A stretch of 64,000 nt of DNA from Bacteroidota bacterium (GTDB lineage: Bacteria > Bacteroidota > Bacteroidia > B-17B0 > Aurantibacillaceae), in the NCBI GenBank assembly GCA_013297775.1, contig JAAFIL010000009.1, positions 1-64,000 on the forward strand. The letters are read 5' to 3'. This document shows positions 14,513 through 61,585 of this stretch, one piece after another. Under the pieces are notes generated by a model, which saw only the letters and a program-made list of their open reading frames with translations, was not told where the DNA came from and did no database searches. Positions within the stretch are counted from its first letter, which is position 1. Each line of letters opens with the position of its first letter. The position numbers were made by a program, and so were the translations under genes.

Positions 14513-14565
14513 GGTTGCGAAGGTAGTAAAATAAGACTAATTGGAGGTGTTATGCTAAATTTTAT

Positions 14566-14801
14566 GGCTCGCAATGGGCGCAAAGAAGGCAAAGGAAGAA
14601 ATATTATGGTGAACGGTGATGACAAATTTTGATGGCTCGCAATGGGCGCAAAGAACGCAAAGGAAGAAATATTATGGTGAACGGTGATGGCAAATTTTGG
14701 TGGCACGCAATGGGCGCAAAGAACGCAAAGGAAGAAATATTATGGTGAACGATGATGGCAAATTTTGGTGGCACGCAAAGGGCGCAAAGAACGCAAAGGG
14801 T
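14566..14801. repeat. 68-bp tandem repeat, about 3.5 copies; fills the 14513-14920 gap
   Basis: Units begin at 14566, 14634, 14702 and 14770, each starting GGC[TA]CGCAA and containing GCGCAAAGAANGCAAAGG, then GAAGAAATATTATGGTGAAC. The period is exactly 68 bases with few substitutions; the fourth copy is cut after the GC-rich part. The unit core is the reverse complement of the CTTTGCG repeat seen at 25.4, 26.9, 44.5 and 46.5 kb. I see no gene in the rest of the 408-base gap. Confidence 0.95.
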
Positions 14802-22317: not shown

Positions 22318-22605
22318 GAAAAATTAAACAAAATATGTTAAATCACTAATTATCAAGCACTTAATTTTTTTTAGAAATTTCTAAAAGTGAATTTATTAAA
22401 CAAAACGCAGGAAAGTGGTCAAAATTCTTAGGCTAAAAAACGGTTTGTTTAACCTAGATTTGAAAAAAGAGGGTTTTAAAATAGATTTATAATTGGATGA
22501 AAAGCTTTTACTGAGCGTGTAGCGCGCAACGTTCGCAAAGGAAGAATTGAACCTACCATTTTCAATAGGCTTATTTTATTCTTGTATTAGACTAACAATT
22601 ATTTA

Positions 22606-22718
22606 TTCCATATAATTTAACACACACGAGTTCATGATGCCACTGATTTATTTTAAATGCCTTTTTAAAATTTAAGTTCCTTCTCAGCGTACGCTTCGTC
22701 TTTGCGTGTTATTTTTTT
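22606..22718. repeat. Diverged third copy of the ~110-bp dispersed element
   Basis: It begins TTCCATATAATTTAAC and ends CTTCGTCTTTGCGTGTTATTTT. Aligned by eye to the copies at 44412 and 46464 it keeps the start, the CTTTTTAAAATTTAAGTTCC middle and the CTTTGCGTG end in the same order with many substitutions. This shows the element is older than the two near-identical copies. Confidence 0.65.
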
Positions 22719-22785
22719 GTGTCCTAGTATTTAATAGAGTTATAGCTTTTATTCTAAAAAACCTTCAGTCTTAAAACAACAGCTC

Positions 22786-22947
22786 ATACCAACATCATTT
22801 CTAAAAGATACGTTGACCCAGTTTCTTTTTCTCTTATGCTTCCTCAAAAATTATACCCGTAGGCCTGGCTACGCCTATAATTTTTTCGTCGCCTAAAAGA
22901 AAAATAATTCTGGTTCAACTTGTATCTTTTAGAACCGATATTGGTAT
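22786..22947. repeat. 162-bp foldback (MITE-like) element
   Basis: The termini ATACCAACATC and GATATTGGTAT are near-perfect inverted repeats. Complementarity continues inward through TTCTAAAAGATAC / GTATCTTTTAGAA and GTTGACCCAG / CTGGTTCAAC to a central imperfect hairpin (TTATACCCGTAG / CTACGCCTATAA). The whole element can fold into one long stem. It carries no gene. A 61-bp version lacking the centre is at 38353-38413. Confidence 0.8.
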
Positions 22948-23161
22948 CAGAAAAGTAAATCAGCATTTTATTTTTTGCGTTGAAGCCGACTCTTTCTAGT
23001 AAATTGTGTTTCCACCAAGTGCAAATATCTTTTACACCAAAGGTTTCATCAATAGAAATTGAGCTAAAGCAGATTAGCTGTTGTTAGTATTAAGCTCTTC
23101 CAAAAGAAGAAAATGCGACGAATCAATTCTATAATTAGCCCCGAGTTATTAGTATAAACCG

Positions 23162-25547: not shown

Positions 25548-25760
25548 GCTTTGCATATAAAATCTCTAATCAGGTTAAAGGTTTTATTCTAAACAAACAC
25601 GTTTTTCAAGTTTGATATAGTCTCACTTTTAGTTTTAATAAAACAGAAGTATAGTTTTGTAAAATAACTCCACCCTTTCGTAAAAACAATTCATTTGGTT
25701 ACATCGAATGAAATACATTTGCCATATCAAAATTAAAAACCAAAAATTAAAAATTAAACT

Positions 25761-26941: not shown

Positions 26942-27170
26942 TTAATACCCTTCCTCCTTTGCGAACTTTGCGCCTTTGCGAGCCACTCATTCATCTATCC
27001 TCAACACTTAATACCCTTCCTCCTTTGCGAACTTTGCGCCTTTGCGAGCCACTCATTCATCTATCCTCAACACTTAATACCCTTCCTTCTTTGCGAACTT
27101 TGCGCCTTTGCGTGCCACACATTCATCTATCCTCAACACTTAATACCCTTCCTCCTCTGCGTGCCACACT
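26942..27170. repeat. 66-bp tandem repeat, about 3.5 copies
   Basis: Units begin TTAATACCC at 26942, 27008, 27074 and 27140, period exactly 66. Each contains TTCCTCCTTTGCGAACTTTG, CGCCTTTGCG, then CACTCATTCATCTATCC. The last copy lacks the middle of the core. Because 66 is divisible by three, a repetitive open frame crosses the array, but it is not a gene. The array fills most of the gap between the propeller terminator and the convergent glycosyltransferase gene. Confidence 0.95.
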
Positions 27171-38154: not shown

Positions 38155-38352
38155 ATTTTATAGATACAGCCATTCGTTAAATCAAAATGATTAATCAATT
38201 TGGTTAAACCGTAAATAGCTGCGGCAGATTTTATTTTGTAATAGATTTCAACGGTCTATTCCATCGAACTCATTTTTAAGTTTTGATTTTAAGTCTTTTT
38301 ATAGAGTTAAACGTTTTATTCTAAAGCCCCCTCTTTCCTGAAATTACGGTTA

Positions 38353-38413
38353 ATACCAATATCGGTTCTAAAAGAAACTGGGTCAACGTATCTTTTAGAA
38401 ATGATGTTGGTAT
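38353..38413. repeat. 61-bp deletion derivative of the foldback element
   Basis: 23-base arms 38353-38375 and 38391-38413 (ATACCAATATC... and ...GATGTTGGTAT) are inverted repeats with 20 of 23 matches and a 15-base loop. The sequence matches the reverse complement of the two ends of the 162-bp element at 22786 joined directly. The roughly 50-base segment before it (TTTTATTCTAAAG at about 38309) also matches the region before the 162-bp copy. Confidence 0.8.
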
Positions 38414-38442
38414 AAAGCATAAAAAATATCTCCACCACTAAA

Positions 38443-43266: not shown

Positions 43267-44427
43267 ATGCGTGTAGCCTTATTAACCGATGGCATTTGGC
43301 CTTATGTTTTAGGAGGAATGCAAAAACATTCGTACTACTTGTGTCGCTATTTAGCTCAACAAGGAGTTACCGTGGATTTGTTTCATTACAACGATAGCAC
43401 TTACGATATTACGGCCTTAGAATTTTTTACTCCCGAAGAGCGTAACAATATAAAGGCGCATGTTTTAGAATTTCCAAAAGGAAAAATTTTTCCTGGGCAT
43501 TACGTTTACAAGAATTACATTTACTCGCGTTTAATAGCGCAGGTCATGGCACCAACTCTGGCTCAGTACGATTTTATTTATGCCAAAGGATTTACACCAT
43601 GGTATTTATTAAATCAGAAACGAAAAGGTAAACTACACTGTGCGCCCATTGGGGTTAAGTTTCATGGGTACGAAATGTTTCAAACGAGCCCGAATTTAAA
43701 AACGAAGTTACAACACCTCTTGCTATTGAGGTGGCCCGTTAAACATATTTCGTTAATGGCCGATGTTGTGTTTTCGTATGGCGGAAAAATAACGGATATT
43801 ATACGAGGCTTAGGCGTGAAGCCCCAGCGTATTATCGAAATGCCATCGGGCGTAGAGCAAGAATGGATAACAACCACCATTAAACCAACCGAACAGCCCA
43901 TACAGTTTTTATTTTTAGGTCGCTACGAACGGCGCAAGGGTATTGAGGAGTTAAATGCAGCGTTGCAACACCTTTTGCAAATACAAGCACCCGAATTTCG
44001 TTTTCATTTTATTGGACCCATTCCCGACGATAAAAAACTAAATGCTAAAGTTTGTATCTATCACGGCGAAATACGCGATCGCAAAACCCTTTTAAATATA
44101 CTGCAACAAGCCGATGTGTTGGTTTGCCCCAGTTGGAGCGAAGGCATGCCCAATGTTATTTTAGAAGCGATGGCTAACGGATTAGCGGTTATAGCAACGG
44201 ATACAGGAGCTACTCGTTTGTTGGTTAATGAACAAACAGGGCATTTATTACCCAATGCTCATCCGCAAGAAATAGCAAAGCAACTTTTACAATTTTTAAA
44301 TACCTCGCCTCACCTCATCCATCAAAAAAAACAAAACGCACTCGCAAAAATAAAAGCACAATTTATGTGGGAAACACTCATCACACAACTCATCACAAAA
44401 ATAAAAGCACAATTCCATATAACTTAA
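43267..44427 (+). CDS. Glycosyltransferase family 4
   Basis: This 386-residue GT-B protein starts MRVALLTDGIWPYVLGGMQKH, a GT4 N-terminal pattern with a GG loop. The second domain contains FLGRYERRKGIEEL and PSWSEGMPNVILEAMANGLAVIAT with the catalytic E-x7-E. The last five codons (FHIT and stop) lie inside a copy of the 110-bp dispersed repeat, so the repeat has supplied the C-terminus. Linked to sppA by nine bases. Sugar specificity unknown. Confidence 0.92.
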   Translation: MRVALLTDGIWPYVLGGMQKHSYYLCRYLAQQGVTVDLFHYNDSTYDITALEFFTPEERNNIKAHVLEFPKGKIFPGHYVYKNYIYSRLIAQVMAPTLAQYDFIYAKGFTPWYLLNQKRKGKLHCAPIGVKFHGYEMFQTSPNLKTKLQHLLLLRWPVKHISLMADVVFSYGGKITDIIRGLGVKPQRIIEMPSGVEQEWITTTIKPTEQPIQFLFLGRYERRKGIEELNAALQHLLQIQAPEFRFHFIGPIPDDKKLNAKVCIYHGEIRDRKTLLNILQQADVLVCPSWSEGMPNVILEAMANGLAVIATDTGATRLLVNEQTGHLLPNAHPQEIAKQLLQFLNTSPHLIHQKKQNALAKIKAQFMWETLITQLITKIKAQFHIT

Positions 44428-44520
44428 CTCATAGCAGTTAATAAAGGCAATGATTTGTTCTGAAATTCTTTTCAAAATGTAATTTCCGTCTTTGCGAACT
44501 TTGCGCCTTTGCGTGCCATT
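44412..44520. repeat. 110-bp dispersed element, copy A (left of GH18 gene)
   Basis: The first 55 bases (44412-44466, starting ATTCCATATAACTTAACTC) are identical to 46464-46518. The rest, ending in CTTTGCGAACTTTGCG and GCGTGCCATT, is more than 90 percent identical by eye. The CTTTGCG core links it to the tandem arrays. Confidence 0.93.
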
Positions 44521-44629
44521 ACCAATGAAATTGAGTTACTCAAAATCCCTCTTTCTTAAAATCTCGGTTAAACGTTTGAGTCTAAAATGTTTGTTTATTT
44601 TTCTATCTTTAATGAACTAAACGTATCTT

Positions 44630-46423: not shown

Positions 46424-46463
46424 TAGCAAGCGATTTGGCGGTAACACGTATAGGTTATAAACT

Positions 46464-46573
46464 ATTCCATATAACTTAACTCATAGCAGTTAATAAAGGC
46501 AATGATTTGTTCTGAAATCCTTTTTCAAAATTTAATTTCCGCCTTTGCGAACTTTGCGTCTTTGCGTGCTATT
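46464..46573. repeat. 110-bp dispersed element, copy B (right of GH18 gene)
   Basis: Same orientation as copy A, beginning 40 bases after the GH18 stop codon. Both copies are followed by TTAAAATCTCGGTT-containing tails (about 44555 and 46592), extending the similarity to about 150 bases. Confidence 0.93.
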
Positions 46574-46628
46574 TTTAGTTCAACCGATTTTTTAAAATCT
46601 CGGTTTAACTAAAAAGTAACGCAAGCGA

Positions 46629-61094: not shown

Positions 61095-61560
61095 ATACCA
61101 AATTTTAAGAAAGAGAAACAGTAGAGTTAAGTTGGCAACTTGTTTTTAAACGGTTGATGGCGATGAGTCTAAGAACGATGCCATAGACTCTAGATTCATT
61201 TATTTATTATTTTTTGGGCGTGTCCCCAGTTCCACTTTCAATTTTGGTTTATTCAGTTCCACCTTATTCATTTTAAATTAAAAACTTTTAAATTAAAACG
61301 GGGTCGGGTCATCCGCTTTAGCCCCTTGGGCGTTTTGCTATTTTGCTACGGCCTGCGCTGAGCCTGCCCGAGTCGCTGCGGGGTCTTCGTGCCTCAGCCG
61401 CCTCGCTCGTGCAAAATTAGCAAACGCCCTTCGGGGGCTGCCGCTTCTACCCCCTCACGCAGATGGGTTCTCCATAAATTTCTGTTGCATAATGTGAGCT
61501 TAAGTATTTTGTAGCGTTAGCTGGTTTATTCTAAAGCCCCTATTTCTTAAAATTTGGTAT
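61095..61560. repeat. 18-bp perfect inverted repeat enclosing a GC-rich palindromic element
   Basis: ATACCAAATTTTAAGAAA (61095-61112) and TTTCTTAAAATTTGGTAT (61543-61560) are exact reverse complements. Between them, at 61318-61346 and 61411-61440, lies an imperfect inverted repeat of about 28 bases around GGGCGTTTTGCTATTTTGC. The segment 61300-61467 is far richer in G and C than the rest of the window. No open frame with protein-like composition is present, and no gene is seen from 61040 to 61585. Confidence 0.85.
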
Positions 61561-61585
61561 AAACTAAATGATAGTCAAGATAGCA

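Follow-up and report, generated by a model that had tools for sequence, protein, structure and literature searches.

In the window analysed here, a stretch of 64,000 nucleotides (positions 1 to 64,000 of contig JAAFIL010000009.1, assembly GCA_013297775.1) from a Bacteroidota bacterium of the Aurantibacillaceae, two divergent genes, one for an ECF-type sigma factor and the other for a D/K/N-type class II tRNA synthetase, flank a 160-bp imperfect foldback element with the termini TACC...GGTA. Sequence comparison places this full-length element on the plus strand at 22787..22946, between two TCA target-site duplications (22784..22786 and 22947..22949). The original prediction had drawn the element from 22786 to 22947, so that each end took in one base of the duplication. 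The 25-bp terminal inverted repeats are TACCAACATCATTTCTAAAAGATAC on the left (22787..22811, plus strand) and, on the right, the reverse complement TACCAATATCGGTTCTAAAAGATAC (22922..22946, minus strand). Between them lies an 85-nt core at 22822..22906 (plus strand), which is common to elements across the family and class and matches the core model R1 with an E-value of 2.4e-12. At the apex of the core is a hairpin (22858..22878) with a terminator-like match on both strands, a match of pattern only.

The full-length palindrome that had been proposed is real: the DNA fold reaches -35 kcal/mol against -14.3 for shuffled sequences (z -6.1), and RNA folding gives -67 kcal/mol for the minus strand (z -11.9) and -54.5 kcal/mol for the plus strand (z -9.4). 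As had been claimed, the element carries no gene, its 160 bp being overlapped by no ORF of at least 100 aa, and it has no Rfam match at gathering score. The shortened copy reported at 38.35 kb is a 59-bp version on the minus strand (38354..38412), in opposite orientation to the full-length element. It retains both ends, which are joined at an AAAAGA microhomology with 101 bp missing, and has intact TAA duplications of its own (38351..38353 and 38413..38415).

Copies and target sites

The source genome (G000) is a 4.35-Mb draft in 128 contigs. A BLAST-type search of it returned at least 40 copies that are full-length and no less than 98% identical, and the 25-bp terminal repeat matched 119 and 120 times on the two strands with up to three mismatches, the reversed control giving no match. 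These end matches put the total at about 120 elements, or roughly 0.4% of the genome, spread over many contigs and well beyond the two copies on which the original prediction was based. Mean divergence from the consensus is 1.0% among 42 copies, which suggests a recent burst of amplification; the window copy differs from this consensus at two places, element positions 52 and 81.

Identical 3-bp flanks, always TNA, bound 42 of the 49 distinct copies that could be read with their flanks, whereas shuffled flanks were identical in 17.2 cases on average and in 28 at most over 10,000 trials. The TNA target is itself flanked by Y and R, giving a YTNAR site. Uninterrupted versions of the target repeats, that is paralogous empty sites, are also present in the genome: CCATATAACTTAACTCATAGC occurs empty at window positions 44409 and 46461, and filled, as CCATATAACTT[element]TAACTCATAGC, in another locus (L011). 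The elements have thus inserted in the past with duplication of 3 bp. A dispersed intergenic repeat of the type CCATATAACTTAACTCATAG... and TTTATTCTAAAGCCCC...TTTCTTAAAATCTCGGTT lies in the window at 22602-22763, 25565-25598, 38297-38330, 44409-44573, 46461-46609 and 61507-61564, and elsewhere in the genome copies of the 160-bp element are often found nested within it.

What kind of repeat is this? The element has the terminal inverted repeats, target duplication, small size, high dispersed copy number and AT-richness (106 A/T in 160 consensus positions) of a MITE, together with the lack of a gene, and is a gene-less, MITE-like element. The original prediction had left the choice between a MITE and a large REP; the inverted repeats, copy number, TNA duplications and empty sites bear out the former, while the latter is unsupported. 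Elements of the REP/RAYT kind are short and lack a target duplication. Movement of a REP/BIME-like element via a hairpin of single-stranded DNA, with a RAYT (Y1/HUH) enzyme as the transposase, would suit the hairpin form, the strand asymmetry described below and the intergenic placement, and REP, BIME and REPIN sequences are likewise high-copy intergenic palindromes. However, the element combines target-site duplications, which HUH transposition does not make, with a length of 160 bp, far above the 20-40 bp of REPs (PMC3733652), and such an origin is very unlikely.

Relatives across the family and class

A query with the entire element matches two congeners (G030 and G026) over the full length at 70-77%, whereas in another genome (G016) only the core is matched. 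The G016 loci nevertheless contain complete elements, with different arms but with TACC-type ends, TNA duplication and length as in the source genome. Relatives were collected with the core model R1, which matches in 26 of 87 family genomes, in five genera. In 22 species representatives the element measures 158-161 bp, 18 of them being 159 or 160 bp long, and the 3-bp duplications are identical in 15. Length is fixed within this range over many species, and the core is conserved: identity between two elements averages 0.51-0.52 in the arms, compared with 0.77 in the core and 0.89 over the six end bases, the core figure being due in part to ascertainment by a model that favours conserved cores. 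When the same 87 genomes were searched with the end alone, however, the source genome and the two congeners were the only ones to match, all of them core-bearing. The comparison also provides a covariance model with which this Bacteroidota repeat family can be annotated. Neither Rfam nor the papers searched describe the family, and the plasmids, phages and viral contigs searched gave no match to the element.

In a wider sample of the class, core matches occur in 20 of 395 genomes. Some are clear elements, foremost in genus g18 of family f9, while others (G434 and G247, for example) resolve into no clear element. The g18 elements carry the core between GAGCCTGTTCARGATCTC ends, have a full length of 161 bp and show identical TNA in seven of nine cases. 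Their ends, GAGCCTGTTCAGGATCT, are identical at 13 of 17 bases to the end of ISLrh, GAACCTGTCTAGTATCT, an IS of the IS1031 group that duplicates TNA (PMC12016507). Among the relatives, GA-type IS1031 ends are confined to g18; the window element has the 3-bp TNA duplication of the IS1031 group with TACC in place of such ends. One g18 element (G174, L218 1501-1837) contains an inserted segment bounded by GAAGCCATCTCAAAATA, resembling IS ends in another genome (G265, L253), and is thus a case of nested elements.

A covarying hairpin and its strand asymmetry

The 22 elements share a hairpin of 59 pairs on the minus strand, in which 95.2% of cells are standard pairs, compared with 44-50% when the partner is slid. 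Changes on both sides are found in 40 of the 59 pairs, so that the hairpin covaries, although the relatedness of the species means fewer independent events than cells. None of 500 shuffles reached any of the hairpin measures, a comparison that is inflated by species kinship; the slid controls retain this kinship and yet stay far below.

The two strands are not equivalent. The consensus fold has an energy of -51.8 kcal/mol for the minus strand and of -25.1 for the plus strand, partly because of wobble pairs: the non-Watson-Crick cells in the arms include 46 minus-strand G-U pairs and three plus-strand ones. If each combination of position and pair type is counted a single time, the ratio is 21:2 in favour of the minus strand (p 7e-5); an early count in 12 elements had given a weak asymmetry. 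The bias indicates that the fold of one strand is favoured and is compatible with RNA as well as with single-stranded DNA. Mutation bias was considered as its cause and rejected: among 45 distinct new substitutions in the copies of the source genome, Watson-Crick pairs became minus-strand wobbles eight times, plus-strand wobbles seven times and mismatches nine times. As new mutations are unbiased while the arms of the family are not, new copies appear to drift regardless of pairing and the lineages that found families to keep it. The pattern suggests that selection acts on the minus strand in its folded state, be it RNA or single-stranded DNA, during amplification rather than at each site. The fold would then matter when the element multiplies, with no host function at individual insertions.

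Could the palindrome instead be kept mechanically, by template switching or gene conversion within the hairpin that copies one arm onto the other? Long palindromes self-correct at replication, and the arms do vary in concert between species, as such copying would have it. It would, however, yield identical and strand-neutral arms, whereas the arms are imperfect, with their wobbles on one strand; recent mutations show no strand bias, and conserved unpaired internal loops remain within the stem. Mechanical copying is accordingly unlikely to account for the hairpin.

A second alternative is a domesticated sequence, a structured RNA or bidirectional terminator useful to the host between convergent genes and mobile by chance. 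By simple ORF calls, convergent genes flank 24 of the 43 intergenic copies that could be classified, a setting that accounts for 20% of intergenic bases (p about 3e-7); this placement, the terminator-like match on both strands of the apical hairpin and the covariation would all fit a host function. Nevertheless, the parasitic RUP, BOX and IS elements are similarly enriched between convergent genes, which has been read as tolerance of parasites (PMC3049150). Pair-breaking changes build up in the copies of the source genome, the genes around the window copy are divergent, and occurrence among the family genomes is patchy. Domestication is, on this evidence, quite improbable.

Transposition and likeness to known systems

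The original prediction had called for a transposase with matching ends. None was found in the source genome (PF01609 and PF13359), a draft in which a collapsed IS would be missed and whose shortest contigs examined, of about 2.5 kb, are partly masked, five of them (C29-C33, L110-L114) having N at their ends. Nor did one appear in the congeners (PF13359), in 13 related genomes (PF01609) or in loci around unpaired ends. In 30 loci examined in the source genome, paired element ends lie one element length apart, and contigs without end matches, as well as contig ends, carry the ends of other ISs. In the source genome PF01609 detects an IS1380-type gene at C112 and, at C78, a decayed copy, and the ISs that it detects in the 13 related genomes have ends that do not match. 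The PF13359 candidates (a decayed IS5-type element at C78, and others in G026 and G007) have ends unlike those of the element where they are readable. Ends of the G026 type were found across GTDB in that genome and in two unrelated Firmicutes, matches taken as chance, and in the g18 loci that were read the GAGCCTGTT ends form no IS-length pair accompanied by a transposase. The resident IS5-type elements were rejected as partners for their different ends, GACCTCTTTCATAATT. They are multi-copy and can be seen mostly at contig ends (L097, L104, L107 and L116), and the decayed copy at C78 (L069/L070), with a DDE_Tnp_4 match, belongs to the same GACCTCTTTCATAATT-ended type.

Taken together, the sequence comparisons make it probable that the element is a gene-less MITE moved in trans by a DDE transposase, with a requirement for the folded minus strand, and that it persists mostly between convergent genes. 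We infer that an IS5/IS1031-type (PIF/Harbinger-like) enzyme is the most likely transposase, since the IS1031 group duplicates TNA and the g18 relatives bear IS1031-like ends. The enzyme would cut at the TACC...GGTA ends and insert the element at YTNAR with a 3-bp stagger, duplicating TNA. For amplification, the minus strand, present as RNA or as single-stranded DNA, would have to be able to fold from end to end, and some step would read this folded strand. Spreading lineages may retain the hairpin by compensatory change while their arm sequence drifts or is swapped; inserted copies would decay regardless of pairing and survive mainly between convergent genes, where insertion is presumably least harmful. 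A broader and more speculative possibility is that hairpin transposons of fixed length across the class all spread via a folded minus strand, with a constant core that is recognised and exchangeable arms that suit different transposases, a parasite thus switching ISs.

As a MITE the element is ordinary; the noteworthy part is the constant core, with changing arms and a strand-specific hairpin, across a bacterial class. The usual view of bacterial MITEs is that they are ISs in decay and that nothing but their ends counts. In this family, by contrast, many species conserve the interior and the fold, the arms at the ends vary and one of the two strands is preferred. Confirmation of this would mean that the fold itself has a part in transposition or shields the element, and the family would offer a natural series of ends for testing how a parasite changes its transposase.

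Among known systems, RUP (107 bp) and BOX of Streptococcus pneumoniae and ERIC/IRU (127 bp) of enterobacteria, compared by description, are also palindromic, tightly folded and mobile, and of similar size. The target duplication of RUP and ERIC is TA. The present element differs from these two in duplicating TNA, and the family differs from RUP, BOX and ERIC in its species-specific arms around a common core. The IS5-family MITEs of Porphyromonas gingivalis (MITEPgRS/MITE464 and MITE239; PMC4596501) are likewise short, AT-rich and gene-less with inverted-repeat ends. Unlike such IS5-moved MITEs, the present family yielded no parent IS, and it has a length held constant over many species, a core more conserved than the ends, and an entire hairpin that covaries on one strand. 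The IS1031 group shares the TNA duplication and, through g18, the type of end (PMC12016507). In eukaryotes, the NuwaII group of PIF/Harbinger-like PHIS transposons, again compared by description, has the target C|TNA|G, near YTNAR, and a 3-bp duplication (PMC4482050).

Other repeats were noted in the window. At 14554-14799 and 26942-27161 there are tandem arrays, with unit lengths of 68 bp and 66 bp, in which GCGCAAAG/CTTTGCG is abundant. A 464-bp segment at 61096-61559, with the ends TACCAAATTTTAAGAAA...TTTCTTAAAATTTGGTA and TAA on either side, overlaps a dispersed repeat and may be another element of the TACC/TNA type.
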